A stretch of 28,581 bases of DNA from a virus. The stretch is taken from positions 1-28,581 of IMG/VR virus record IMGVR_UViG_3300045996_000357. One strand, 5' to 3'. Below, one piece after another: positions 6,184-27,222 of this stretch. The notes below the pieces were generated by a model that had not been told where the DNA came from, did no database searches, and saw only the letters and a list, made by a program, of their open reading frames with translations. The translations under genes were made by a program, and so were the position numbers. How positions within the stretch are numbered: position 1 is the stretch's first letter; the number at the start of each line of letters is the position of its first letter.

Positions 6184-6655
6184 GATATTGAGCGATCAAC
6201 AACTGTGTGAAATAGAGTTTGAGAACGCTGGTAACTCAGACATGGAAGAACTGATCGCCTCACACCGCGCCCTGCACAGCCAGGCTCAGGAGTGGGAGCG
6301 GAAGTATCATAACGCCATCGCAGGGTATGAGACGTTCATGGCTGATGCGAACCGCGACCGAGACACACTCGAAGCCGTCTGCATGGAACAGCGCGGCATG
6401 ATTGAGAAGCTGCACAGCCAGGTGAGGGAGTTGGAGGCTGACCGTAACAAGTGGAAGCGTATTTGCGAAGGCAATATCCAAGACATTTGCGACTTTGAGA
6501 AGGAAATGGAAGAGAAGCATGGCATGGAATTTAGCGATGATTACGGTGGCGTGTGGCATGGCGATGCTGTGACGAAGAAGATCAACGAATTACAGGCCAG
6601 AATCACGGCTTTAGAGAATGAATTAAAAGAGAAGGACAAGCATGAATCTCGATGA
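6176..6655 (+). CDS. Coiled-coil protein, 159 aa
   Basis: ATG 6176 has a strong AAGGAGGG upstream; an in-frame ATG at 6098 lies within the previous gene and is not needed. The product is strongly helical and charged. Heptad-like stretches run from about residue 25 to 110 and again from about 133 to 156 (ELQARITALENELKEKDK). A short Gly/Trp-containing loop (DDYGGVWHGDA, about 121-131) breaks the coil. Such proteins usually oligomerise; no function is recognised. The 3' end overlaps the next gene by 14 nt. Confidence 0.6.
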   Translation: MSEILSDQQLCEIEFENAGNSDMEELIASHRALHSQAQEWERKYHNAIAGYETFMADANRDRDTLEAVCMEQRGMIEKLHSQVRELEADRNKWKRICEGNIQDICDFEKEMEEKHGMEFSDDYGGVWHGDAVTKKINELQARITALENELKEKDKHESR

Positions 6656-7070
6656 GTTGAAGAGATTTAAGGCTAAATACACGGTCCAGGGTGAATGCTG
6701 GATTTGGCACGGATCGAAAGTTGGTTCGAGGAATACGGACTGTTTTTATGGGCAATTCTGGGCATCAAAGAAAACTTGGCTTGCTCATCGCGTCTCTTAT
6801 GAACATTTCAATGGCCCAATTCCTGACGGATGGACCGTTGACCACTTATGCAGAACGACTCTCTGCGTGAATCCTGCCCATCTGCAAGCCGTGACATTGC
6901 GAGAAAACATTATGCGTGGCACTGGCCAAACAGCAATTGACTCACGGAAAACACATTGCCCGCAGGGTCATTTACTGGAGAGATTGAACGAGAAGCGCCG
7001 GTTCTGTCGGACTTGCCATCACGCTTCTGATGCTAGATGGAGAGCAAAGCAGAGAGGAAAACATGACTGA
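6642..7070 (+). CDS. HNH endonuclease (phage zinc-binding type)
   Basis: This 142-residue protein begins with a CWIWHG motif (C19, W20, W22). The HNH core spans about residues 47-92: AHRVSYEHFNG, then VDHLC (D67-H68-C70), then C75, N77 and H80 in CVNPAHL, and RENIMRG. A C-terminal zinc site follows (C106-PQGH, then C122 and C125). This architecture is typical of HNH nucleases scattered through phage genomes, where they act as mobile nicking or cutting enzymes. It overlaps both neighbours and differs in family from the proteins at 341 and 9121. Confidence 0.92.
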   Translation: MNLDELKRFKAKYTVQGECWIWHGSKVGSRNTDCFYGQFWASKKTWLAHRVSYEHFNGPIPDGWTVDHLCRTTLCVNPAHLQAVTLRENIMRGTGQTAIDSRKTHCPQGHLLERLNEKRRFCRTCHHASDARWRAKQRGKHD

Positions 7071-7477: not shown

Positions 7478-7505
7478 TTGACAATTCTGTATAAACCCGT
7501 ATGTC
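7478..7505 (+). promoter_or_regulatory. Possible sigma70-type promoter
   Basis: A perfect TTGACA (7478-7483) is followed after 16 bp by TATGTC (7500-7505), a weak -10 match. It lies in one of the few short gaps between genes and faces the tiny genes that follow. Transcription would begin near 7512, which favours the ATG at 7525. The poor -10 box keeps confidence low. Confidence 0.35.
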
Positions 7506-7524
7506 AGACGGGGTGAGTCACTTC

Positions 7525-7680
7525 ATGTCCTCTTCCGAACTCAACAGACATCAACTGAAACGCAGCCCACGAGTCTATTACAGCACAGCCTTAGACAACA
7601 GACGGAACGTGAAGCAGCAGAAGAACACGAAAGCTGCCAAGCGAGGACTGCAACGGCTGAAGGAGTTAGGCTTGTGCTAA
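7525..7680 (+). CDS. Small basic hypothetical protein, 51 aa
   Basis: ATG 7525 has GGTGAG 7 nt upstream and would follow the possible promoter; the in-frame ATG at 7501 overlaps its -10 box and lacks a ribosome binding site. The product is rich in Arg, Lys and Gln (RRNVKQQKNTKAAKRG) and may bind nucleic acid. No family recognised. Confidence 0.5.
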   Translation: MSSSELNRHQLKRSPRVYYSTALDNRRNVKQQKNTKAAKRGLQRLKELGLC

Positions 7681-7745
7681 TCCTTGGGACGATTGCCGGC
7701 ATCATCGCCATTGTCCTCTTCGCCCTCTGGCTTGGGGAGCCATGA
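7674..7745 (+). CDS. 23-aa membrane micropeptide, GTG start
   Basis: An AAGGAG at 7660-7665 lies 8 nt before a GTG start that overlaps the previous stop. The peptide is almost all hydrophobic (LILGTIAGIIAIVLFALWLG), one transmembrane helix. The stop couples by ATGA to another membrane peptide. The strong ribosome binding site argues that it is real in spite of its size. Confidence 0.45.
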   Translation: MLILGTIAGIIAIVLFALWLGEP

Positions 7746-7837
7746 CGCTGACTGATTACTTCATCACGGCGATGTGGTTCGTTATCAGTTTCGTCGCTAC
7801 TCTTGCCACGCTCTACACGATCTTTGGCAATCCATGA
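7742..7837 (+). CDS. 31-aa membrane micropeptide
   Basis: ATGA overlap with the previous micropeptide and again with the next gene. The peptide begins MTLTDYF and then forms one transmembrane helix (about residues 8-28). It is the second of two tandem single-helix peptides. Function unknown; holin, superinfection or regulatory peptides are possible. Confidence 0.45.
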   Translation: MTLTDYFITAMWFVISFVATLATLYTIFGNP

Positions 7838-8343
7838 GCACAGACATTATTACCAAACCTCTCGAGCCCGCGCATCTTAAAGACTCTTCTCTTTCTTCTC
7901 TTAATACTGTCTTAGAAGAAGAACCTCTTTCCGAAAGAGATAAAGAGACTTTTAGTCTTATTCAGCGTTGGAGAAACAGAGAGAAGTCATTACTAGAACT
8001 CTCCGAAGAGTTAGGAGTGACTAAGGAAGGATTGAGACGAAGAATAAAGAGTTGCTGTTATCGGTATAGCGGATCGAACTTAGTCTATAAAGAACTAGTC
8101 AGAGAAGTCGTTGTTGATAAGTTGATTGATGCTGAAGATAAAGTCATGGAAGCAGCAGAATCAGGGAACAACGTTGCTGCTACGTGTGCACATGTGATGC
8201 TGAAACATTCCGAATGGCTGGCAGAACGATTGGTGCCAGAGAAGTTCATTCCAAAGAAGCACATTGAGACAGATAATACCCTCAGACTGATCGTAGATAG
8301 GGGAGTAGAGCGTAAGCCCTTGATAGTCAACGACTCTCAGTGA
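7834..8343 (+). CDS. Candidate small terminase subunit
   Basis: ATG 7834 overlaps the previous stop; an in-frame ATG at 7774 is inside it and has no ribosome binding site. The 169-residue protein has a helix-turn-helix (about residues 52-72, LLELSEELGVTKEGLRRRI). A helical region follows (about 97-132, LIDAEDKVMEAAESGNNVAA through KHSEWLAERLVPEKF) resembling the region after the helix-turn-helix in phage small terminases, which recognise packaging sites. The large subunit lies 2.3 kb downstream, farther than usual. Base composition is notably AT-richer than its neighbours, suggesting recent transfer. It could instead be a transcription regulator. Confidence 0.5.
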   Translation: MSTDIITKPLEPAHLKDSSLSSLNTVLEEEPLSERDKETFSLIQRWRNREKSLLELSEELGVTKEGLRRRIKSCCYRYSGSNLVYKELVREVVVDKLIDAEDKVMEAAESGNNVAATCAHVMLKHSEWLAERLVPEKFIPKKHIETDNTLRLIVDRGVERKPLIVNDSQ

Positions 8344-8374
8344 ACAGTATGCACTACACTGTCCAGAAGGCAGC

Positions 8375-8614
8375 ATGAGTAAGAAGATCCTCAAGAAAAA
8401 ATCTCTAGGTCTCAAGTCTCAGGGAAAAGACCCCCGGGGTTCAAAGGCAGGACGGGGTAGGGTGTTGAGGACTCCGACGCCTACGGCTTTACATCCAGTA
8501 TATTCACCTCAGTTATTAGACTGGCTGGATCATACGTATCGCTTTTACCTTGGGGAGTATGGCTTACGGGAAGTCTCCCCCGGGGTCTTTGCGATTGTGG
8601 AGTCCCATGACTAA
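8375..8614 (+). CDS. Hypothetical basic protein, 79 aa
   Basis: Follows a 31-nt gap with AGAAGG upstream of the ATG. The N-terminal third is very basic (SKKILKKKSLGLKSQGK and GRGRVLR), and the C-terminal half is more folded-looking (PQLLDWLDHTYRFYLGEYG). The stop overlaps the next gene by 8 nt. No domain is recognised. Confidence 0.5.
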   Translation: MSKKILKKKSLGLKSQGKDPRGSKAGRGRVLRTPTPTALHPVYSPQLLDWLDHTYRFYLGEYGLREVSPGVFAIVESHD

Positions 8615-8783
8615 AGACACAGCCGAGGTGATGGAACCGAAGGTCTACACGTATCGGGGCCAAGTCATTTCAGAGATGTCCCGTGAGGAGTTAGTGGACG
8701 CCTTAACCGTGATGGCAAAAGCTGAGATTGACCGCCAGCTGAAGGAATCGGAGAAGTGGCTGCGGCTATGGAGTCTGGTGTAA
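8607..8783 (+). CDS. Hypothetical protein, 58 aa
   Basis: ATG 8607 overlaps the previous stop, with GTGGAG just upstream; an in-frame ATG at 8550 is inside the previous gene. A beta-like YTYRGQVI segment is followed by an amphipathic helix (SREELVDALTVMAKAEIDRQLKESEKW, about residues 24-50). No function recognised. It shares its last base with the next start (TAATG). Confidence 0.5.
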   Translation: MTKDTAEVMEPKVYTYRGQVISEMSREELVDALTVMAKAEIDRQLKESEKWLRLWSLV

Positions 8784-9124
8784 TGACCCCGATGCGAGCC
8801 ATACGGGAGAAGTGTTTGGATTGTTCAGGCGGGTCAGCCAAGTCCGTGAAGGAGTGTGTCATCTGGACCTGTGCCCTGTACCCATTTCGCTTAGGCCGTA
8901 ATCCGAATAGGGTTCCCCTCTCTGAGGAAAAACGTGCCCAGTTAGCTGGACGGTTTTCGGCAGGAAAGGCCATTGTTGGGGTAGTCCTCGGAGTGGTCCT
9001 GGCAGGCTGTGCCGGTCCCCAGATGCCGACTGAGCCCTTCCGCTGCTTTGATGCCTTAGGCAAGGAAGTTCCCTGTATCGAGGAGATGGACTGCCACGAG
9101 GAGTCGAAGGGGAAGGAGCTATGA
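8783..9124 (+). CDS. Phage four-Cys protein with a C-terminal lipobox
   Basis: I chose ATG 8783 from the TAATG overlap and because homologous phage proteins start (M)TPxxAIRxKCLDC. Residues 1-42 match that conserved phage family, with a probable zinc site at C11, C14, C25 and C30. After a polar linker, residues 63-76 form a hydrophobic stretch ending in a classic lipobox (L73-A74-G75-C76), followed by a short Pro/Cys-containing tail. The C-terminal half thus looks like an outer-membrane lipoprotein of Rz1-like size fused behind a cytoplasmic zinc domain. There is no in-frame ATG, GTG or TTG immediately before the hydrophobic stretch, only an ATT after AGGAAAGG. Whether the lipobox is used is unknown. 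Confidence 0.65.
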
Positions 9125-9657
9125 AGCGGCTGGATTTGACGGGGCAGAAGTTTGGGAGATTGACGGCGCTAGAGCCATCCCGCTTCGATTCAAGGGCAAA
9201 GAAGCTCGCATGGCGGTGCCAGTGTGAGTGTGGAGCCATCCAATTCGTACATACCAATTCCCTTACAAGCGGCAATACCAAGTCCTGCGGATGTTGGGAC
9301 CGTGATGTAGCCAGAGAGAGAATGAAAGGGAATACATTTACGCGGCGGCATGGTCATGGAACGCGAGCCGGAAAATCTCCCGAATACTACACATGGACAG
9401 GGATGAAGGCGCGTTGCCTCAATCCCAATGCACCCCGTTGGACCGATTACGGTGGGCGCGGCATTACGGTATGCGACAGGTGGATGACATTTGAGAACTT
9501 CCTAGCAGATATGGGGCCACGTAGATCCCTCGAGTACAGTCTTGACCGCATCGACAATAACGGCAATTACGAACCAGGAAACTGCCGCTGGGCGACTCGT
9601 TCAGAACAGCAACGCAATCGTCGGCGGACTCACAAGGAGGTGGCCATTGGCCATTAG
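9121..9657 (+). CDS. HNH-type endonuclease-like phage protein with N-terminal zinc domain
   Basis: This 178-residue protein has an N-terminal module (about residues 6-60) with FGRLTAL and cysteines C33, C35, C37, C56 and C58, in the WxCxCxCG...SCGC pattern. The C-terminal module (about 88-170) carries [35 protein letters not shown] and NCRWAT followed by QQRN. This is the signature of a large phage family placed with HNH/AP2 endonucleases. It is the third nuclease of this sort in the window and the third distinct subtype. The start overlaps the previous stop (ATGA), and the end overlaps the next gene by 11 nt. Confidence 0.88.
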
Positions 9658-9868
9658 CTCAAGTGATTTGCAAGCCCAATTAGGCACCAACCCCAATAAC
9701 CCACAAGTCATTCGGGATTATGGAGTATGCGGGTCTGAACAGCATTGGCTGATTGCGGGCGGGACGGTCTACCCCGGACGGACCAAGTTCTGTCAGACGA
9801 CAGCCAGTGATAATGCGGCGACCCAGAAAACCGCGATTCTGGCAGATTTAGCGGCAGGGCCGGCCTAG
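9647..9868 (+). CDS. Hypothetical protein with TTG start, 73 aa
   Basis: A perfect AAGGAGG (9634-9640) sits 6 nt before TTG 9647. An in-frame ATG at 9542 lies deep within the preceding gene, so TTG is the more likely start, giving (M)[15 protein letters not shown]. The product is small, with two Cys and a Gly-rich centre ([17 protein letters not shown]). No domain recognised. It couples to the next gene at TAGTG. Confidence 0.55.
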
Positions 9869-10023
9869 TGGAGTTTCAGTTCAATAGCGACAATCCCACC
9901 GAGGCTGAGATTGAGAAAGCCTTGGAGTCGATTACGCAGTTGGTGTTTCTGACGACCGATATGGCGCAAGCGATTCTGCGAGCGGCTGAAATCAGTGAAT
10001 TAGAAGCGATGTGGAAGCGATGA
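9868..10023 (+). CDS. Small acidic helical protein, 51 aa
   Basis: The GTG start shares its first base with the previous stop (TAGTG) and the stop overlaps the next start (ATGA). The product is acidic and helical (EAEIEKALESITQLVFLTTDMAQAIL as two helices). No family recognised. Confidence 0.5.
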   Translation: MEFQFNSDNPTEAEIEKALESITQLVFLTTDMAQAILRAAEISELEAMWKR

Positions 10024-10139
10024 ACCACCTAGCACTTGAGCAGTGGCTTTTGCGGAAACCGTATTTGATCGGGACTGTGCAGCATCATTGTATGAAGCTC
10101 TTAGTCGAAGCCGAGATGAGGAAGAAGAAAAAGCGCTAA
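10020..10139 (+). CDS. Small basic protein, 39 aa
   Basis: ATGA overlap with the previous stop. The peptide has a Trp/Leu-rich first half and ends with a strongly basic tail (RKKKKR). Function unknown. It is the last gene before the intrinsic terminator. Confidence 0.45.
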   Translation: MNHLALEQWLLRKPYLIGTVQHHCMKLLVEAEMRKKKKR

Positions 10140-10193
10140 CTACACACATCCCACGTCCGGGCTGATCCCCTGGGCGCGAGTTATCGAGAAGAG

Positions 10194-10235
10194 AACGGCG
10201 GTCTGGTTGCAACCCCAGGTCGCCGTTTTCTTTTT
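10194..10235 (+). terminator. Strong intrinsic terminator
   Basis: AACGGCG (10194-10200) pairs with CGCCGTT (10221-10227); two G-T wobbles and CTGG/CCAG (10203-10206 with 10215-10218) continue the stem to 13 pairs with an 8-nt loop. A TTCTTTTT run follows (10228-10235). This is the clearest terminator in the window and separates the left gene set from the late operon. An upstream CCTGGG (10169-10174) can pair with CCCAGG (10214-10219) in the stem, so an antiterminator form is possible. No promoter is apparent between the terminator and the gene at 10279. Confidence 0.88.
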
Positions 10236-10278
10236 GGGACACAACAACAGGATCAACCACAACCAAGGAGGGGAAGCC

Positions 10279-10626
10279 ATGGAAGTGCAAGTGTTTGCGA
10301 GTGATGAGGAGTATACGCCGTTGAACATTGAAGCCCTGACGCATGACGAAGCCTACGCCGTCTGTGAGCAGGTCGTCAGGATGGGGAAACGAGAACTGGT
10401 AAAGCGCATGGAGGTTGATGCCATTTGGCTCTCGCTACGGGCGAAGAATGTGCTGAAGCGGGCAGGGATCAAGGTTATTGGCGATCTCCTGCTGCCGATT
10501 GAGCAGATTCGCAAATTACGCGGTGCTGGGGAATTGGTGATGAACGAGATTGCCAAGGGATTGGAAGAATTGGGGTTGCCGTCAGCCAACTGGCGGCTCG
10601 CTTCAGTCGGGAAATACCAGAATTAA
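10279..10626 (+). CDS. RNA polymerase alpha C-terminal-domain-like protein
   Basis: ATG 10279 follows AAGGAGGGG; an in-frame ATG at 10207 lies in the terminator. The 115-residue protein matches the alpha-CTD of bacterial RNA polymerase over about residues 46-100 (SLRAKNVLKRAGI, IGDLL, then a helix-hairpin-helix ending EIAKGLEELGL). By alignment from memory, R54 and N57 match E. coli R265 and N268, which contact UP-element DNA, and G84 matches G296; K298 and S299 are replaced by L86 and V87. There is no N-terminal alpha domain, so it would not assemble into polymerase. It could bind DNA or compete with host alpha. It lies just after a terminator and before the packaging genes. Confidence 0.75.
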   Translation: MEVQVFASDEEYTPLNIEALTHDEAYAVCEQVVRMGKRELVKRMEVDAIWLSLRAKNVLKRAGIKVIGDLLLPIEQIRKLRGAGELVMNEIAKGLEELGLPSANWRLASVGKYQN

Positions 10627-12056
10627 TGGACATCAATCTCCCGAATAACTGGCAAGCCCGCTCCTATCAGAAACCCGCCTGGAACTATTTGTCCACGGGT
10701 GGGAAGCGAGCGGTTTTGGCATGGCCACGCCGGCATGGGAAGGACGATTTGTGCCTGACCCATATTGCCTGTGCCATGACTGAGCGAAAAGGCACCTACT
10801 GGTACCTCCTGCCGGAATACGCCCAAGCCAGAAAGTCCATGTGGGACGCCATTGATGAAGAACGGGGCTCACGCCGGATTGACCTCATTTTCCCTGAAGC
10901 CATCCGCACCCTCTACCGCGAACAAGAAATGATGCTGGGCTATTGCGGAAGCACGCTCCAATTCCTTGGCGCTGACAACTTTCACTCGTTGGTGGGCTCT
11001 CCTCCGGTGGGGGTGGGCTTTAGTGAATACGCCAGAACGGACCCATCGGCCTGGGCCTACATCATGCCCATCATTGAAAAAAACGGGGGGTTTGCCATGT
11101 TCAATAGCACCCCCTACGGCGACAACCACTTTAAGAAGTTTTGTGAGTACGCCGACAAGCAGATGACGGCCGGCAAAGATTGGTTCTACCAACGTCTGAC
11201 CGCCGATGATTGCAACGTCTACAGCCGCGCTCAACTGGATGAGATTAAGGACCAACTCTGCGCCACCCACGGCGATGACTATGGGATGGCGCTGTTCCTC
11301 CAAGAATACTACACCGCCTTCGATGCCGCCATCCCTGGCTCCATCTGGGGCGATTGTCTGGACAAGGCGCGACGGGAAGGACGGATCCATCCGTTCGTCG
11401 TGGACCGCAAGTTGCCTGTCTATACCGGCTGGGATATTGGGCGGGCTGATGATACCGCTATCTGGTTCTATCAAATCCTACACGGCGAACTGCTGATCTT
11501 CGATTTCCACGCCTCGAGCCTCAAAGACATCGCGTTTTACTGCGACCTGTTGGAAGCCAAGCGGGACGAGTACGGCATTACCTACGCACGGCATTGGTTG
11601 CCCCATGACGCGAGACCGCGTGTGTTGGCCTCGGGTGCTGGCTCCATGTTGCAGCAGATGAATGAAGCCGCACGGCGTAACCCCAAATTGGGACAGTTTG
11701 CGATTGCGAAGCGGTTGGATAAGCAGGAGCAGATTCAGGCGGGTCGCGCCACACTGCCCATCTGTCGCTTCCACGATACCCGCACGGCCGAAGGGGTGAA
11801 GGCCCTCCGTCACTATCACCGCGTCTGGGATGAAGAGTTACGCAAGTTTGCGGATGTGGCGGTCCACGATTGGGCCTCCCATCCGGCCGATGCCTTCATG
11901 ACCGTGGCAACCACCTGGAAACTCAGTCAACCGGAATCCTCAGAGTTGCCGATGGGCACCCGCCTGCTTGGTGGGAATCCTGTGAAGGAGCGCTGGGGGT
12001 CTTTCCTTAAGCGTCATCTGGACCGTAGGCGCAGCGAACGGGAGCTTGTGGCATGA
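10626..12056 (+). CDS. terL: Terminase large subunit
   Basis: This 476-residue protein is the packaging motor and headful or site nuclease. The N-terminal ATPase has a Walker-A-like AWPRRHGKDD (residues about 32-41; the Ser/Thr after GK is Asp, a known terminase variant) and a Walker-B-like GVGFSEYA (about 129-136). The C-terminal RNase-H-like nuclease has D in YTGWDIGRADDTA (about 265-277), HWLPHDA (about 322-328) and the closing HDWASHPADAF (about 414-424). Start overlaps the previous stop (TAATG); stop overlaps the portal start. Length is normal for the family. Confidence 0.95.
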   Translation: MDINLPNNWQARSYQKPAWNYLSTGGKRAVLAWPRRHGKDDLCLTHIACAMTERKGTYWYLLPEYAQARKSMWDAIDEERGSRRIDLIFPEAIRTLYREQEMMLGYCGSTLQFLGADNFHSLVGSPPVGVGFSEYARTDPSAWAYIMPIIEKNGGFAMFNSTPYGDNHFKKFCEYADKQMTAGKDWFYQRLTADDCNVYSRAQLDEIKDQLCATHGDDYGMALFLQEYYTAFDAAIPGSIWGDCLDKARREGRIHPFVVDRKLPVYTGWDIGRADDTAIWFYQILHGELLIFDFHASSLKDIAFYCDLLEAKRDEYGITYARHWLPHDARPRVLASGAGSMLQQMNEAARRNPKLGQFAIAKRLDKQEQIQAGRATLPICRFHDTRTAEGVKALRHYHRVWDEELRKFADVAVHDWASHPADAFMTVATTWKLSQPESSELPMGTRLLGGNPVKERWGSFLKRHLDRRRSERELVA

Positions 12057-14251
12057 GCGACGGGACAGACGAACGCAAACCGAATACCGACATCAAGTTT
12101 TGGCTGGAAGAGATTGCGGCGGCGAAAAAGCGCGAGAAGGACTACCGCAAAGGTGGGACTCGCGTGCTGGAAATCTATGACGGCACGAAAGCCAAAACCA
12201 CGCCGTTCAACATTCTCTTTAGCAACACCGAGACGATGACGCCCGCGCTGTATAGCGCGACTCCGCGTCCCGTGGTGCAGCGACGGTTCAAAGACGAAGA
12301 TCCATTAGGGAAGCACGCGGCCTTAGCCGGGAAGCGGGTGCTGGAGTTTCTCCTCGATACCAACCTCGAGGGCTACGACACGTATGACGCCTCCATGAAG
12401 CATGTGACGCTGGATGCCGGCCTGCCTGGTCGTGGCTGGGCCACCGTCAAGTATGACGCCGAGATGGGGGAGTACGAGCAGCAAGAAGGCGAGACCGAGC
12501 CCACACCCTATGTCAAGTCCGAGTTGGTGTGCACCGAGGCGAAGCAATGGGACCGCATCTATCACGGGTATGCCAAGAAATGGAACAAGGTGCCGTGGGT
12601 GGCCTATGAAGGCTACATCGACAAAGAGGAAGCGGTTGAGAAGTTTGGCAAGGACGTTGCCGGCAAACTTCGCTACTCCGACAACGATGAAGCGGAGTCC
12701 GACAAGGAATCCCCACGAACCAACGAGGAGAAAAGCCGTGGCGAAAAACGGATGGCCTGCTTCTATGAAATCTGGGACAAGGACGGCTGGGGCAATCAAG
12801 GTAAACGGAAAATCCTCTGGATCTCTCCCGGCTACAAAGACGGCTACCTCAAAGTTGCCGACGATGAACTTGGGCTCACCGGCTTCTTCAACTGTCCGAA
12901 GCCGCTCCAGTTCGTGGATAAGACGCATAGCCTCGTACCTACTGCACTCTACGCACTCTATGAAAATCAGGCTGAGGAACTAAACAAGATTCAACGGCGC
13001 ATCAATCGCCTGGTGGAAGCCTGTAAAGCCCGTGGGCTGTATGACGGTGCGTTAGGCGGGGACCTCTCCAAGCTCTTCGCCGCCGAAGAAAACGAACTCA
13101 TCCCAACTGAAAATTCTGCCTCACTCTCCGCTGAAAGGGGCATGAGTAACGCCATCTACTTCATGCCGCTTGACCAAATCCGGCAAGTGTTGATGGACCT
13201 CTACAACGCTCGGGAGTCCTGCAAACAAGTCATCTACGAAATCACCGGCATCAGCGACATTCTGCGCGGAGCCTCCAAAGCCTCTGAGACCCTCGGTGCC
13301 CAGGAAATCAAAACCCAGTGGGGGACGCTGCGACTCAAGAACAAGCAGAAGGAAGTGGCCCGTTACGCCCGTGACCTTTTGCGAATGATGCTCGAGTTGG
13401 CCGCCTCCAAGTTCAGTGAAGAGACCTGGGCCAAGATGACGGGCCTGCCGTTTATTACCTCGGCCAAGCTGAACGAACTCACCGCGATTCATCAGGCACT
13501 CAAAGCCCAACTGCAAGCGATGCCGGCTCCGACGCCTGGTCCGAATGGGGAGCCTCCACAACCGCCCCAAGAAGTCATGCAGCTGCAACAGATTGAGCAG
13601 CAACTTCAAGCGCCGAAGTGGGCTGAGGTCATTGGCCTCCTGCGCGATGACATGCAGCGGGCCTACCGCGTGGATATCGAGACAAATTCTACGGTGGAAC
13701 CGGAAGCGGCTGAGGACCACAAGCACATTCAAGAAATGATGATGACGTTGGGCCAAGTGCTCCAAGGGCTCACGCCGTTAGTCGTCTCAGGCACCATGCC
13801 ATTCCAAATCGTGCAAGACCTCTTGCTGGTGATTGCCCGCCGCTACCGCTTCGGGAACGAAATCGAGGACCACATCAAGGCCATGCAGCCGCCGAAGCCA
13901 CCGGATGAGAACGGCGCAGAGCAAGTGAAGAAGGAAAAAGAGTTTGCCCAAAAAGAAATCCAGATGAAGCAGAAGGAAGCGGAGGGGGCCATCAAGTCCA
14001 AAGACCTGGATCACCAGATGAACGTGAAGCATCGGGAGATGCAGTTAGCCATGAAGGAAATGCAACTGCAAATCCGTGAACTCCAGGCGCAACACGACAA
14101 GAGCATGGCCGAGATGGATTTACGCATGAAGGAACAGATGGCCGGCAAGAACATTCAGATGAAGGGACAGGAAGCGGCCTTCAAAGTGAAGCAAGCGCAG
14201 CAGCAGTCCCAGCAGCAACGTCAGCAACAGTCACAGCGGAGGTCAGCATGA
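12053..14251 (+). CDS. Portal protein
   Basis: At 732 residues it is in the size range of large P22-like podovirus portals. The order large terminase then portal with an ATGA overlap is standard. The N-terminal half has recognisable portal features: early helical charged region, FNILFSNTETMTPALYSATPRPVV (in two parts, about residues 52-75), and a central ALYENQAEELNKIQRRINRLVE stem-like segment. From about residue 620 to the end the protein is a long Lys/Glu/Met/Gln-rich coiled coil ending in a Gln-rich tail, like a barrel extension. It forms the dodecameric ring through which DNA enters the head. Confidence 0.9.
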   Translation: MSDGTDERKPNTDIKFWLEEIAAAKKREKDYRKGGTRVLEIYDGTKAKTTPFNILFSNTETMTPALYSATPRPVVQRRFKDEDPLGKHAALAGKRVLEFLLDTNLEGYDTYDASMKHVTLDAGLPGRGWATVKYDAEMGEYEQQEGETEPTPYVKSELVCTEAKQWDRIYHGYAKKWNKVPWVAYEGYIDKEEAVEKFGKDVAGKLRYSDNDEAESDKESPRTNEEKSRGEKRMACFYEIWDKDGWGNQGKRKILWISPGYKDGYLKVADDELGLTGFFNCPKPLQFVDKTHSLVPTALYALYENQAEELNKIQRRINRLVEACKARGLYDGALGGDLSKLFAAEENELIPTENSASLSAERGMSNAIYFMPLDQIRQVLMDLYNARESCKQVIYEITGISDILRGASKASETLGAQEIKTQWGTLRLKNKQKEVARYARDLLRMMLELAASKFSEETWAKMTGLPFITSAKLNELTAIHQALKAQLQAMPAPTPGPNGEPPQPPQEVMQLQQIEQQLQAPKWAEVIGLLRDDMQRAYRVDIETNSTVEPEAAEDHKHIQEMMMTLGQVLQGLTPLVVSGTMPFQIVQDLLLVIARRYRFGNEIEDHIKAMQPPKPPDENGAEQVKKEKEFAQKEIQMKQKEAEGAIKSKDLDHQMNVKHREMQLAMKEMQLQIRELQAQHDKSMAEMDLRMKEQMAGKNIQMKGQEAAFKVKQAQQQSQQQRQQQSQRRSA

Positions 14252-15615
14252 GGTGTCGATGGGTTCTACTAGGTATTGTTCTGTGCCTCTGGCCGGCGCT
14301 GTCGTTTGGCCAGCAATTGCAGTCGCAGCCTGTCCATACGTTTCAGAGTGCAGCCACGGCAACTGGCAATGGCGAATCACTTGCGGTGCAAGGATGGGCC
14401 ACAGTCGGCCTCCAGGTGGTGATTTCCGATACCGCAACCATCACTTTCGAGGCAACTACCGATGGATCGAATTGGGTCAGCCGAACCTGCGTCTCGATTG
14501 CGAGCACGTCAGCGGCACTCGTCACGACTGCCTCAGCGAGTGGGTTATTTTCCTGCGATGTCGCAGGCATGTCCAGCTTCAGGGCCAGGATTTCTTCCTA
14601 TACGGGCGGGACGGTCACAGTAAAAGGGTTGGCGACCCTCGCAAAGAAAGGCGGGGGCGGCGGTGGATCAACCGGCACCGCCTCAGCAGTCACCAGCAGT
14701 GGCACGCTACCAGCGGCCTGCACCATTGGTGATGTGTACGTTGATAACGATCTAGTGGCGCTCTATCTGTGCACCGCAACAGATACATGGACGGCTGTTC
14801 TCACCAGCGAAACGCAAACACTCCAACTCGCCTTCGCTCAGGGCAAGGCCATTACCGGCGCAAACTCTGAAGCCAACTGCTTTCGAGCGGGTACGTCAAC
14901 CAATTATTACTGCATCTATTCCGATGCTGGCACTGGGCTTTATGTGAAGCCTGAACCGCTGGCTGACACCACGTTAAGAGCCTGGACGAATTTCAATTTG
15001 GTTTTTCGGGATGAGGAATCGGCCGCAGCCATAGAGACGATAGACCCTGACGCAGCTTCCACCTTGGCGATGTGGACCTACGGCACGGCCTATCGTCCCA
15101 AGAAAAGCATCTGGTTTGACGCGGGGTCCATCTCGACCAACTCAACAGCAACAGACGGCCAGCGCTGCGAAGCTCCTGCGGAAGTCACGCTCAACAGCGG
15201 GCCGATTACGTGGACGATTATCTGCGACGACCATGATTCGGCTTCCATGTACGGGAAAGTACGCATGCCTGATGCATGGGACGGCGGGACCCTCACATTC
15301 ACTCACGTATACCTCCAGACCGCTGCCGATACTTCAGCCTTAAACGGTGACATTGCGGCTCAGTGCCGAGGCAATGGCGAGGCTCCTTCAAGCACCTGGG
15401 GCACTGAAGTCGCCATCGATGACGCCGGTGTAACTGGCAGTAACCAGAATGATGAAACCACGTCGGCGGCGGTGACGCCAGCCGGGACCTGTGCGGCTGG
15501 TGACATGCTGTATTGGCGTTATCAGTTAGATGCGACAGGCACGACCACCGCAGTAGCCACGCTGCATCACCTCGGTTTCAAGATGGAGTACAGCATTACC
15601 TCACGGAGTGACTAG
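14248..15615 (+). CDS. Exported beta-rich protein, signal peptide plus phage-type sandwich domain
   Basis: The 455-residue product starts with a Sec signal peptide (basic MRCRW, hydrophobic core, likely cut near SFG/QQ, residue 21). Residues about 30-130 hold a beta-sandwich pattern common in phage structural proteins (ITFEATTDGSNW, FRARISSYTGGTVTVKG). A Gly6 run (135-140) then joins a second beta-rich region, and the last third (about 290-450) resembles head- or tail-fibre-type domains. It is the first of four consecutive signal-peptide genes between portal and scaffold. ATGA overlap with the portal stop. Role is unknown: exported virion part, or envelope protein made in the infected cell. 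Confidence 0.65.
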   Translation: MRCRWVLLGIVLCLWPALSFGQQLQSQPVHTFQSAATATGNGESLAVQGWATVGLQVVISDTATITFEATTDGSNWVSRTCVSIASTSAALVTTASASGLFSCDVAGMSSFRARISSYTGGTVTVKGLATLAKKGGGGGGSTGTASAVTSSGTLPAACTIGDVYVDNDLVALYLCTATDTWTAVLTSETQTLQLAFAQGKAITGANSEANCFRAGTSTNYYCIYSDAGTGLYVKPEPLADTTLRAWTNFNLVFRDEESAAAIETIDPDAASTLAMWTYGTAYRPKKSIWFDAGSISTNSTATDGQRCEAPAEVTLNSGPITWTIICDDHDSASMYGKVRMPDAWDGGTLTFTHVYLQTAADTSALNGDIAAQCRGNGEAPSSTWGTEVAIDDAGVTGSNQNDETTSAAVTPAGTCAAGDMLYWRYQLDATGTTTAVATLHHLGFKMEYSITSRSD

Positions 15616-15620
15616 CCATT

Positions 15621-16409
15621 ATGATGATGCACCTGATTCTTGTCATCGCGTTTCTTCTCTGCATGGCCGCGCCAGGTCGGGCCGCAGTGTCCTGTAGTTT
15701 ACTAACTTCAGGACAGGACACTACGGACAGAACTTCTGCGGGAAATCCCTACGTCACGGCATCCATTTCTCCAGGCGCGAATAAATTGATTTTGTTTGCG
15801 ATTCTTGTGAACAGGGGCACAGCAAGCGATACGGCCAGTGTGACACTGACTCCTACCGGAAACAGTCTCACCTACACATTGATTGACCAACAAAACTTTT
15901 CGCTGGCTGGCAACCCTGGCGACAAACTCGCACTTTTTCGGGCTATGGGATCGTCACCGACATCTGGGGCGATTTCTATAGAATGGTCACCAGGACACTT
16001 CATGTCTGGGGCAGCATGGGCGGTGGTGGAGTGTTCTGGCGTTAATACCTCTGGAACCCATGGATCTGGCGCTGTCGTCCAAAGCGATAAGGACGAACAA
16101 AACCCCGGAACAGGACTCACCTTATCCCTGGCCGCGTTTGAGAAAGCCTCTAATGCTACGTTTGCCACCTTTGCCAACGACAGTACCACGGCAGCGACGG
16201 TAGCAATGACCCCCGAAGGCGGGTGGACTGAGCTAGCTGAACAGAATTGTACGTGTGGAGCGAGCCAGAATTATTCCATCAATGCTCAGTGGATTGCCTC
16301 GAACGATACCACTCCATCCGCTACGTGGTCGAGCGTTGACGCGGCTGGAATCGCGATTGAGATTAAAGCAGTCCCAACAGCGAGGGCTGGGGCAATGGTG
16401 ATGCCGTGA
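15621..16409 (+). CDS. Exported beta-rich protein with signal peptide
   Basis: 262 residues. The start is MMMHLILVIAFLLCMAA with likely cleavage after about residue 21 (GRA/AV). The mature part is Ser/Thr/Ala-rich and beta-predicted, with alternating hydrophobic strands (NKLILFAILVN, GAAWAVVECSGV, GIAIEIKAV) like a jelly-roll or sandwich; two Cys near NCTCG suggest a disulphide. No named family is recognised. The stop overlaps the next GTG start (GTGA). Second of the four signal-peptide genes. Confidence 0.6.
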   Translation: MMMHLILVIAFLLCMAAPGRAAVSCSLLTSGQDTTDRTSAGNPYVTASISPGANKLILFAILVNRGTASDTASVTLTPTGNSLTYTLIDQQNFSLAGNPGDKLALFRAMGSSPTSGAISIEWSPGHFMSGAAWAVVECSGVNTSGTHGSGAVVQSDKDEQNPGTGLTLSLAAFEKASNATFATFANDSTTAATVAMTPEGGWTELAEQNCTCGASQNYSINAQWIASNDTTPSATWSSVDAAGIAIEIKAVPTARAGAMVMP

Positions 16410-19153: not shown

Positions 19154-19587
19154 TGCTCATTCTATTCTTTCTGCTATTGTTTGCGACCCCAGTCCATGCG
19201 GCTTCAATCATCTGGGACCCTACGGCTGATGGGTTCCTGCTGCTGGAATACAGTGCGGCTGAAGGCGGTCCGTTTACCGTCATTAAGGAGATTCCAGCCT
19301 ATCCACCGAAATATCCCATTACGGAGTTTGGCTATTACAAACTCACGGTGCCGAACGGTGGGCCATCCTCCAACGTGGTGCGGTACTTTGCCGATGTGGA
19401 TACAGGCTGGCAGGACGTAGTAGCGGCACTCGATACGAGGGTGAAGATATTAGAAAGCCCTGTCTCAGTTACGAACATGACGGCCAAGCAGATTGACGCT
19501 GATCATATTGAGATTATCGGCAATGCCTGTACGTCACTCAGCACCAGTGGCACAGGCTTAAAACGTATCATTACGTGTAAGCACTAA
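19153..19587 (+). CDS. Small exported protein with FnIII-like segment
   Basis: 144 residues. Signal peptide MLILFFLLLFATPVHA with cleavage near residue 16. Residues about 20-76 resemble a fibronectin-type-III-like strand pattern (IIWDPTADGFLLLEYS, GYYKLTV, SSNVVRYF). A short helical segment (about 82-97) and a C-terminal region with two Cys (ACTSLS, IITCKH) follow. TAATG coupling on both sides. Fourth of the signal-peptide genes. Function unknown. Confidence 0.58.
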   Translation: MLILFFLLLFATPVHAASIIWDPTADGFLLLEYSAAEGGPFTVIKEIPAYPPKYPITEFGYYKLTVPNGGPSSNVVRYFADVDTGWQDVVAALDTRVKILESPVSVTNMTAKQIDADHIEIIGNACTSLSTSGTGLKRIITCKH

Positions 19588-20387
19588 TGGCCTATCGTCC
19601 ACTCAAGGTGTTCATCGGTTGGGACTCCAGGGAAGTCGTGGCCTACCACGTCTTAGTGAACTCCATTATCCGTCATGCCTCTGGGCCGGTCAGCATTACG
19701 CCGTTGGTGCAATCGCAGCTGCGTCAAGCGGGTATCTACACCAGAGAGAGAGGGAAGCTCGAGAGCACGGAGTTTTCCTTAACCCGCTTTCTCGTTCCCT
19801 ATCTCTGTGACTACGGGGACTATGCGGTGTTCATGGATTGCGACCAGCTGGTGCGAGGCGATGTCTACGACCTGGTGAAGATTGCGAAGGCTGATGACCA
19901 CCGCTGCGTATGGTGTGTGCAACATGACTATACGCCGACCACTGAGACGAAGATGGATGGCTGTGTGCAAACCAAGTATGAGCGGAAAAACTGGTCCTCA
20001 GTCATGGTGTTCAGAAACAAGTTCTGCGACAAGCTGACGCCTGGTTATGTGAACACGGCGACTGGGTTGGAACTCCACCGGATGCACTGGGCCGGCGCTC
20101 CCGAGAACATCGGCAAGTTGCCGGCCGAATGGAATCATCTCGTAGGGGAGTTTCCGAAACGTGAGGACGCGAAGCTGTACCACTACACGATTGGCGGGCC
20201 GTGGTTCCGCGACCATCAATTCTGTGACCATCACGACCTCTGGTATGAGGAACTCGATTACGCCTTCCCAAGTTTGAATGTGCCTAGACCGAAGGAGATG
20301 GGAGGTAGCCAAGCGGTACGGCAGCAGACTGTTAATCTGCCCATCGCAGGTTCGACCCCTGCCCTCCCAGCCAAGGTGGTGGCCTGA
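19587..20387 (+). CDS. GT8-like glycosyltransferase; 3' end overlaps a tRNA gene
   Basis: 266 residues. The N-terminal VFIGWDSREVVAYHV resembles GT-A transferases. A DxD metal/nucleotide-sugar motif is at D84-C-D86 in AVFMDCDQLVRGDV, and W/H-rich acceptor-side segments (for example HRMHWAGAPENIGKLPAEWNHL) follow. It would transfer a sugar from a nucleotide-sugar donor, target unknown. The last 30 codons, from about 20299, are the translation of a complete tRNA-Asn gene and look nothing like the family, so the ancestral stop was probably near residue 237. RNase P cutting at the tRNA would remove the present stop codon from this mRNA. It starts at TAATG. Confidence 0.8.
   Translation: MAYRPLKVFIGWDSREVVAYHVLVNSIIRHASGPVSITPLVQSQLRQAGIYTRERGKLESTEFSLTRFLVPYLCDYGDYAVFMDCDQLVRGDVYDLVKIAKADDHRCVWCVQHDYTPTTETKMDGCVQTKYERKNWSSVMVFRNKFCDKLTPGYVNTATGLELHRMHWAGAPENIGKLPAEWNHLVGEFPKREDAKLYHYTIGGPWFRDHQFCDHHDLWYEELDYAFPSLNVPRPKEMGGSQAVRQQTVNLPIAGSTPALPAKVVA
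20299..20373 (+). tRNA. tRNA-Asn (anticodon GTT), embedded in a coding sequence
   Basis: A full cloverleaf is visible: acceptor TGGGAGG/CCTCCCA (20299-20305 with 20363-20369), D-arm GCC/GGC, anticodon stem GCAGA/TCTGC with loop CTGTTAA (anticodon GTT at 20331-20333), variable loop CCATC, T-arm GCAGG/CCTGC with loop TTCGACC, discriminator G and encoded CCA (20371-20373). All stems are perfectly paired. It lies on the same strand inside the 3' end of the glycosyltransferase gene, and the following gene starts 13 nt after it. It could serve codon supply in the late phase and also act as a processing site in the mRNA. The encoded CCA supports a functional tRNA. Confidence 0.96.
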
Positions 20388-25484: not shown

Positions 25485-26596
25485 TGGGCACCACTGACGT
25501 AAAAGACGGTTACGCCTGTCGCCTTTGCTTTGGGGCCTGTCGTGTCATGCTGGAATTAACGCCGACCCCGATAGCGAACAGCTTTCCTGACTATCCCGAT
25601 AGCTACGCCAAACGCTACCCCTTAGCCGTACAGGAATGTTTGGAGTGCGGCCATGTGCAACTCAAGCATCAGGTGTCAGTGGATTGGGTGGATTACCGCT
25701 ATCAGACACCGGAAGCGAGCCGACCCCATTTAGCCGATGCGGCCGATGCCATCAGAACCGCCTTCCCGTTTTTCAAAACGGCCATAGAGATTGGCAGTAA
25801 TAACGGCATCTACCTGGAGGAGCTACGCCGAGTGGGATTTGAAGTCATCGGCATTGACCCGAACGCCAAGGTAGGGATTGCCGCACCATTTACCCATGAC
25901 CTCGCCAAGAAGCTCGAGCCGGTTGACTTGATTGTAGCCAACAACGTCTTGGCCCATGTAGACGATATGTACGATGTGTTCAACGGCATTGACCGCGTAT
26001 TGACGGACGATGGAGCCCTGATATTTGAAGTCCAGTACTTCCCAGACATGATGGCGTCCGGTGCGTTTGACATGATTTACCATGAACACCGTGACTACCA
26101 CACCATGAAGCCGCTGCCACGCTTCCTGAAACGCTTTGGTCTGGTCATTGAACAAGTGGATTTCATCGAGACGCATGGCGGGTCTCTGCGGGTGTGGTGT
26201 CGCCGTCCCGGTCTCGGCCTGGATGTCGATGACATGGACATGGACTGGCGAGCCTTCAAGCACAAGATTGATGAGGCACGGCGGGTACTCATCGCACAGT
26301 TAGACCAAGCGAAGTCCCACATTGTAGCACTTGGAGCGACAGCCAAAGCCTGTACGCTCATTCATCACTTTGGCCTCACCGACTATATTGACTATGCCGT
26401 GGATAGTACGCCGCAGAAACAAGGCCGCTACATTCCCGGCACAGATATAGAGATTCACCGACCCGATGTCCTCAAGAACGATCCTGATGCTGTTGTCCTG
26501 CTGACTGCGTGGAACTTTGCGGATGTCATTGTGCCGCAATTTCCCGATAAGCAGTTCATCATTCCCTTTGCCAAACCCGTGGAGGTTCTCGCATGA
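25484..26596 (+). CDS. Sugar C-methyltransferase-like protein (TylC3/NovU type)
   Basis: 370 residues. An N-terminal zinc site (C12, C15, C52, C55; CRLC and CLEC) precedes a class I SAM domain with IEIGSNNGIYLEEL (about 101-114) and IGIDPNAKVG, a YHEHRDYHT active-site segment typical of this family, and a C-terminal helical/Rossmann region with GATAKACTLIHHFGL. Three-part architecture and motifs match C-methyltransferases that act on deoxysugar nucleotides. Starts on the last base of the previous stop (TAATG). Confirms a sugar role for the cassette. Confidence 0.85.
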   Translation: MGTTDVKDGYACRLCFGACRVMLELTPTPIANSFPDYPDSYAKRYPLAVQECLECGHVQLKHQVSVDWVDYRYQTPEASRPHLADAADAIRTAFPFFKTAIEIGSNNGIYLEELRRVGFEVIGIDPNAKVGIAAPFTHDLAKKLEPVDLIVANNVLAHVDDMYDVFNGIDRVLTDDGALIFEVQYFPDMMASGAFDMIYHEHRDYHTMKPLPRFLKRFGLVIEQVDFIETHGGSLRVWCRRPGLGLDVDDMDMDWRAFKHKIDEARRVLIAQLDQAKSHIVALGATAKACTLIHHFGLTDYIDYAVDSTPQKQGRYIPGTDIEIHRPDVLKNDPDAVVLLTAWNFADVIVPQFPDKQFIIPFAKPVEVLA

Positions 26597-27222
26597 GTGC
26601 TGTGGTCTCTGAACTACGTGAGCGGTCTGAACGTCCTGCCTATGTGCGCTTTGAAACGCGCCCGCTGGAAGATAAGAAAGCCTCGGAAGAGGCGGGTCAT
26701 TATGTCGCCAAGGATGTGGAGTTTGCCATCATCACCCCCTGCTATAGCAAGGACGAACTGCATTTCAGGGTGGATAAGTGGATGGTCCAGATGGATGACC
26801 AAGTACGGAATGGCCGGATGCCAGCGGAATGGGCGAAGCAGTACAAGCAAGCGTATCAGGCGTGGAAGGAAGGGCTGGAACTGCCGCTGAACGGCACCCC
26901 CATTAAAGGCTGGCCGATTCTCTCGCCCGCCATGCAGGAGAATTTGATCCGGCTCAACATCAAGACCGTGGAAGATTTGGCCGGCATTAACGATGACGCG
27001 GCCAAGATGATTGGCATGGGCGCTATCAATCTCAAGAATAAGGCGAATGCGTGGTTGTCCCAGGCGAAGGATAAAGGGCCTGCCACGATGGAGATTGCAC
27101 GGCTCAAGCAGCAGACGGAAAACCAGAGCTCACAGATTGAAAAGCTGACCGCACAACTGGAGGAGTTCAGGCAAGCGCTGAAGTCCAAGCGGAAGAAGGC
27201 CGAACCGTCCGATGAGGAGTAA
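26593..27222 (+). CDS. Helix-hairpin-helix plus coiled-coil phage protein
   Basis: 209 residues, ATGA overlap with the previous stop. The first half is beta/helical, with YVRFETRPL and AKDVEFAIITPCYSKDELHFRV. Residues about 102-149 (GWPILSPAMQENLIRLNIKTVEDLAGI and a second hairpin AAKMIGMGA) are a helix-hairpin-helix pair, followed by a coiled coil (about 160-195). Similar proteins occur in other phages next to head or adaptor genes, with no agreed function. DNA or virion binding is an inference. Confidence 0.55.
   Translation: MSAVVSELRERSERPAYVRFETRPLEDKKASEEAGHYVAKDVEFAIITPCYSKDELHFRVDKWMVQMDDQVRNGRMPAEWAKQYKQAYQAWKEGLELPLNGTPIKGWPILSPAMQENLIRLNIKTVEDLAGINDDAAKMIGMGAINLKNKANAWLSQAKDKGPATMEIARLKQQTENQSSQIEKLTAQLEEFRQALKSKRKKAEPSDEE

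Follow-up and report, generated by a model that had tools for sequence, protein, structure and literature searches.

The window analysed here is positions 1 to 28,581 of virus record IMGVR_UViG_3300045996_000357, and between its terminase genes lies a small gene whose 115 amino acid product (hereafter the window protein) resembles the C-terminal domain of the bacterial RNA polymerase alpha subunit (alphaCTD). The features of this region are as follows:

7774-8343, + strand: probable terminase small subunit gene (terS), upstream of the hairpin; matches in L006 and L179
10180-10240, + strand: terminator-like hairpin with a 23-pair stem, an 8-nt loop and a T-rich 3′ side, forming the upstream edge of the alphaCTD-terL unit
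10265-10273, + strand: Shine-Dalgarno-like AAGGAGGGG ahead of the alphaCTD gene ATG, from the sequence
10279-10626, + strand: free-standing alphaCTD-like protein gene, 115 aa, ATG start
10342-10380, + strand: predicted extra N-terminal helix, residues 22-34 (model, pLDDT about 80)
10405-10569, + strand: alphaCTD domain, residues 43-97 (Pfam, model and alignment)
10624-10628, + strand: TAATG, one-base overlap of the alphaCTD gene stop and the terL start, from the sequence
10626-12056, + strand: terminase large subunit gene (terL; phrog_2, E 1.5e-18)
12053-14251, + strand: portal protein gene, in the same operon as terL (phrog_12082, E 6e-151)

The sole Pfam family above cut-off in the window protein is RNA_pol_A_CTD (PF03118), which covers residues 43-97 with 35.2 bits against a gathering cut-off of 23.8 (E 1e-8). 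Pfam finds the CTD only, and the N-terminal assembly domain of alpha is absent from the 115 residues, just as the sequence-only reading of this DNA had described it. The NCBIfam RpoA equivalog models likewise match by the CTD alone (20-35 bits against cut-offs of 228-523), and a PDB sequence search to E 10 gives 48 matches, 46 to RpoA and two to designed TIM barrels with no counted stretch. The protein matches no PHROG family at E ≤ 1, the late activators of the phrog_36 and phrog_248 types included; nor does it match a TerS family profile (PHROG; the only Pfam family above cut-off is alphaCTD). As a control for chance, an HMM was built from other alphaCTDs with the window protein left out; the window ORF scores 35.3 bits against it, whereas 20,000 shuffled versions of its product reach 13.3 at most, and of the 271 window ORFs (stop to stop, at least 50 aa) it alone rises above the inclusion threshold. 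Codon usage over 10279-10626 gives +0.30 bits per codon in frame and negative values in the other five frames, and the GC content of the gene (53.6%) is that of the window (53.5%). The leave-out HMM, shuffle, profile and codon results show that the domain is real and beyond chance, and its identity as an alphaCTD is nearly certain.

An AlphaFold model was made from the window protein together with seven phage alphaCTDs. It has a mean pLDDT of 73, with 79-89 across residues 21-100, and its best match in a structural aligner is 1z3e_B, the alphaCTD of B. subtilis (Z 10.8, rmsd 1.5, 66 residues); the best match outside RpoA is the helix-hairpin-helix (HhH) domain of a Rad51 paralogue (Z 7.3). The top PDB matches of the model in Foldseek are also RpoA, yet none is at E 0.001 or better. 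The closest structure is thus an RpoA CTD and not an HhH protein unrelated to polymerase, the outcome that the sequence-only reading had named as the one that would count against it. The extra helix predicted at residues 22-34 is possibly a partner surface or a dimerisation element.

The window domain was aligned with 31 RpoA domains and 17 phage-borne alphaCTDs. Among the RpoAs, 24 come either from a search of the phylum around a Nitrospirae MAG or from that MAG itself (20) or from other terL-bearing genomes (four), and the remaining seven are of the Firmicutes type, from other records; most were chosen through their similarity to the window protein, so that bias, if any, is toward agreement. 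We take the DNA contacts of alphaCTD, beyond R265 and N268, to include C269, N294, G296, K298, S299 and E302, and a literature search for numbered alphaCTD determinants found nothing; each of the eight residues is invariant in all 31 RpoAs. The window protein retains four of these positions (R54 for R265, N57 for N268, G84 for G296 and E90 for E302) and has V58 for C269, G82 for N294, L86 for K298 and V87 for S299; in addition, E85 replaces K297. The alignment thereby bears out the earlier proposal that the equivalents of R265 and N268 are kept while K298 and S299 have become L and V. The 17 phage alphaCTDs are also uneven in what they retain: R265 is present in 17/17, N268 in 13/17, G296 in 10/17, K298 in 7/17 and S299 in 6/17. 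The acidic residues at 259 and 261, which presumably face sigma region 4, are A48 and W50 in the window protein, whereas the RpoAs have E at 259 in 31/31 and E (27) or D (four) at 261. Since acidic residues are lacking at both positions, it is unlikely that the protein would act as a simple stand-in for the host alphaCTD next to sigma.

AlphaCTDs of the R265 type bind minor-groove DNA, and because this arginine is retained in the window protein and in every one of the 17 phage alphaCTDs, the window protein is likely to bind DNA; its affinity may be low, since C269, N294, K298 and S299 are lost and K297 is replaced by a glutamate. R265 and N268 are given as DNA-binding residues, with R265 critical, in the accessible text of PMC11434276.

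The hairpin ends ∼40 bp 5′ of the alphaCTD gene ATG. The fold of 10180-10243 has an energy of -34.6 kcal/mol (z -6.6), and the hairpin ranks first among the 104 T-tract sites of the window in our own scan, in agreement with the earlier statement that the gene directly follows the strongest terminator; it does not appear in the list from a second, tool-based terminator scan. On the other side of the gene, the TAATG overlap suggests that the alphaCTD gene and terL are probably co-transcribed and translationally coupled. The product of 7774-8343 matches the genes at the TerS position in L006 (E 4e-7) and L179 (24% over 127 aa, 5.5e-6), and has a weak Sigma70_r4 match (0.0058) that is below cut-off. 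The order is therefore the TerS-like gene, small genes, the hairpin, the alphaCTD gene and terL. The gene had been placed at the head of the late operon, and this holds for the terL-portal part; with a terS-like gene 5′ of the hairpin, it appears to head the terL operon and not the entire packaging region. A scan of the + strand over 7500-15956, including the stretch before the alphaCTD gene, found no sigma-70-like promoter, and no phrog_36-type partner gene is matched anywhere in the window.

Several other features of the window may be mentioned here. ORFs that look by eye like HNH endonucleases lie at 341-826, 6642-7070 and 9121-9657, one of them in the gap between terS and terL; the 9121-9657 ORF has no Pfam match at E 0.1. 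A tRNA-Asn gene (20299-20373) lies within the 3′ end of the ORF at 19587-20387. Downstream of the major head protein gene, 26593-27222 encodes a 209-aa protein of phrog_20268 (function unknown) with an HhH-like stretch seen by eye, and this product has no Pfam family above cut-off.

The sequence-only reading had also proposed a search for conservation of the gene beside terL in other phages, and none was found. PF03118 is present in 0 of 47 terL-related virus records (80 loci; many of the records are fragments) and in 0 of 18 further related records, many of them also fragments, which comprise ten portal relatives (50-58% identity), seven records reached through the gene stretch 9629-9865, and the circular phage MW202489. 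With the alphaCTD HMM, neither the 80 terL loci with their flanks nor 25 terL loci of bacterial genome records (again with many fragments) give a match above threshold, and there are no close homologues of the window protein among the viral contigs or genome contigs scanned. The alphaCTD gene is not a conserved neighbour of terL; the TerL proteins of the relatives that lack it are 46-55% identical to that of the window. Nor is the hairpin shared: 0 of 18 relatives have one of comparable strength within 600 bp upstream of terL, the next best being -21.8 (L179) compared with -27.7 in the window. A homologue of window 9542-9868 (47% over 60 aa) directly abuts terL in L005, and the gene abutting terL in L181 shows weak similarity to window 10020-10139; neither has a comparable hairpin or an alphaCTD. 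A synteny scan with the gene stretch 9629-9865 contributed little, as its matches were all short and local. From the genes that abut terL in L005 and L181 and the lack of such a hairpin in the 18 relatives, the hairpin and the alphaCTD gene look like an accessory unit in a variable slot before terL.

Genes for alphaCTDs without the N-terminal domain do occur elsewhere in phages. Two scans of virus contigs with conserved alphaCTD patterns gave seven loci and then 14 (six of them already found), with L108 and L109 representing opposite ends of a single record, that of Bacillus phage Goe8. Such genes are present in the uncultivated phages L087-L093, L107 and L110-L114. Grouped by sequence, L087, L088, L092, L093, L107, L110 and L113 appear to form a lineage of tandem pairs (or fragments of them); L111, L112 and L114 form a group in which the alphaCTD lies inside proteins of 443-711 aa; and L089, L090, L091, Goe8 (L108/L109) and gp26 of Microbacterium phage Mazun seem to represent further lineages. 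Tandem pairs are seen at L087 4421-5180, L092 4923-5706, L093 about 2231-2729 and L110 4428-5210, and the first copy of these pairs has H for N268 and lacks G296. The 443- and 711-aa proteins of L111 (4545-5876) and L114 (4203-6338) contain no other Pfam family at E 0.01. In the 223-aa protein of L089 (4527-5198), sigma-70 region 4 (E 2.4e-18) is fused with an alphaCTD (E 2e-22); sigma region 4 and alphaCTD meet at UP-element promoters.

Matches to phrog_36 or phrog_248 (transcription regulators) lie downstream of the alphaCTD genes in L087, L090, L092 and L093. A phrog_36 match is present in 12 of the 13 phage alphaCTD records, a count to be read beside the 12 of 14 control genomes in which phrog_36 also matches ordinary sigma factors. 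It lies about 0.3-1.2 kb from the alphaCTD in seven of the 13 records, six of which look like one lineage, and 3.3-5.2 kb away in three; in L089 the nearby match is the sigma-70 region 4 of the alphaCTD protein itself, and in Goe8, whose alphaCTD gene is in the terminal repeats, the nearest phrog_36 match is about 7 kb or more away. L091 is the one record that lacks a phrog_36 match; there, 610 bp separate the end of the alphaCTD gene from a downstream TerS-like gene, which is followed by terL. Four records contain terL (phrog_2), at about 8-9 kb from the alphaCTD in three (two of which are the same region) and at about 40 kb in L089. This association with late regulators was noticed post hoc in few lineages and is a lead rather than a test; the gene contexts favour a link between the other phage alphaCTDs and late transcription.

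Some database matches proved to be bacterial. A tblastn search of INPHARED with the window protein gave four matches, and the two examined are bacterial rpsK-rpsD-rpoA-rplQ fragments deposited as phage. Matches to alphaCTD in plasmids number 15 records; three that were examined are ordinary rpoA operons, and in a fourth, unannotated there, the match is an open frame of 319 codons, as long as a complete RpoA. MT835508 is an rpoA operon fragment, and L082, L083 and L119 (INPHARED) and L115, L116 and L120 (PLSDB) are ordinary bacterial rpoA operons, probably chromosomal fragments. A phage alphaCTD query matched 21 INPHARED records, and those examined were three fecal records, Mazun and one of the two Goe8 records. 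Recent capture from a host is unsupported: the best RpoA identity that the search tool gives for the window protein, among the phylum genomes of the Nitrospirae MAG (a terL relative), is 44%, and the best in the alignment of RpoA domains is 40% over 57 columns. In that phylum 171 of 245 genomes have a match, almost always in a frame of full RpoA length (three of the frames listed are shorter, at 117, 195 and 214 aa), and the Nitrospirae lead on the host is itself a 75-residue piece of terL at 57%. BREX PglW models match the alphaCTD region of the window protein (NCBIfam 3e-4, PADLOC 1e-5), and PglW may hold an alphaCTD-like HhH stretch; a defence-system reading, with this weak match only, was set aside.

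Many activators in bacteria, as well as UP elements, work through the alphaCTD of RNA polymerase. We tentatively prefer to see the window protein as an accessory, diverged minor-groove DNA-binding protein that modulates late transcription of the phage. The gene and its strong hairpin would sit as an accessory between the terS side and terL, and the protein would probably be made with TerL from one message. It would most likely bind AT-rich minor-groove DNA through R54, the alphaCTD arginine, and N57, and would modulate transcription of the late genes from sites like upstream promoter elements, whether together with a partner or in competition with the alphaCTD of the host; its action on late promoters would do without the usual sigma contact. 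Binding to DNA and an effect on late transcription, along with the direction of that effect and any partner, are inferred here. In favour of the reading are the alphaCTD identity, the R265 retained throughout the phage alphaCTDs, their packaging and late-regulation contexts, the terL overlap and the upstream hairpin. This reading is weakened by the lost DNA contacts and the changes at 259 and 261, by the relatives that do without the gene, by the failure to find a promoter or a phrog_36 partner in the stretches searched, and by the distances to phrog_36 in Goe8 and in the three records with 3.3-5.2 kb.

Among the alternatives, a moron-like cassette, in which hairpin and gene were inserted together at the variable slot before terL and have no role in late transcription, seems somewhat unlikely. 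It would account for the other genes that abut terL in L005 and L181, and for the finding of the alphaCTD gene in no relative searched and of a comparable hairpin in 0 of 18; however, base composition and codon usage are native, no direct repeats were found at the edges, and sharing one base with terL would be a tight fit for something inserted recently. A bolder form of the late-transcription reading, in which phages have repeatedly detached the alphaCTD and reused it, free-standing or linked to sigma region 4, to rewire late-promoter recognition by the host enzyme, is doubtful; the window protein would then be a member that has diverged far, given up its contact with sigma and become a dedicated regulator of the terL operon behind its own terminator. 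Its position between terS and terL, the TAATG overlap and the DNA-binding fold would also suit a packaging accessory, a DNA-binding helper of terminase that is made in step with TerL and marks or bends the packaging site. This is unlikely, as a TerS-like gene is already present in the window, the alphaCTD gene is missing from relatives whose TerL is 46-55% identical, and phage alphaCTDs elsewhere are mostly not beside terL. It is likewise improbable that the protein is directed at the host, covering host UP elements (e.g., those of rRNA genes) and so freeing polymerase for the phage: R265 and N268 are retained and the Goe8 alphaCTD gene is in terminal repeats, which in Goe8-like phages usually hold early host-takeover genes, but the window gene is among late genes behind a strong terminator-like hairpin, and several of the DNA contacts are lost. 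That it is a general HhH DNA-binding protein merely resembling an alphaCTD is largely refuted and very improbable, for although its second hairpin reads GAG, which we take to resemble common HhH motifs, and Rad51-paralogue HhH domains and, weakly, BREX PglW profiles match it, PF03118 stands alone above the Pfam cut-off and the top PDB sequence and fold matches are RpoA.

A virus-borne free-standing alphaCTD of the kind that we prefer here would offer a direct route to redirecting the host polymerase, without a new sigma factor; related phage genes are sparse but recurrent, with one sigma region 4 fusion, and the idea is testable with small proteins and standard transcription assays. No functional description of a free-standing phage alphaCTD was found in the literature searched, including the accessible text of PMC7824862, PMC4390567, PMC11434276 and PMC2801614. 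The claim of the sequence-only reading that such a protein was not described for this position stands to that extent, but Goe8 gp005 and Mazun gp26 are already annotated. Compared with the CTD of RpoA (PF03118), the window protein shares the fold, the domain length, R265, N268, G296 and E302; unlike RpoA, it has no N-terminal assembly domain and has lost K298, S299, C269, N294 and the acidic 259/261. The gp005 protein of Bacillus phage vB_BmeM-Goe8, which is annotated as “RNA polymerase subunit alpha,” is also phage-encoded with the CTD as its only Pfam family, but it is 210 aa long, retains most RpoA residues at the compared positions and is encoded in terminal repeats, away from terL. The 141-aa gp26 of Microbacterium phage Mazun, which carries the annotation “DNA binding protein,” is similarly a small free-standing diverged alphaCTD; its residue losses are different, N294 and S299 being retained, and the 8 kb examined contain no annotated terminase gene. 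The uncultivated phages L087-L093, L107 and L110-L114 resemble the window in having an alphaCTD that stands alone or is fused, in many cases close to genes for late activators or terminase, but their identity to the window protein is 27-40% and some are in tandem pairs or parts of larger proteins. The 95-aa hypothetical protein PRK07758 (NF005841) is also small and is matched to the window protein over 50 residues; at E 0.069 and 13.5 bits against a cut-off of 115, the window protein is not a member of that family. It is a new, strongly diverged variant of the phage alphaCTD, and no other was found at such a place.
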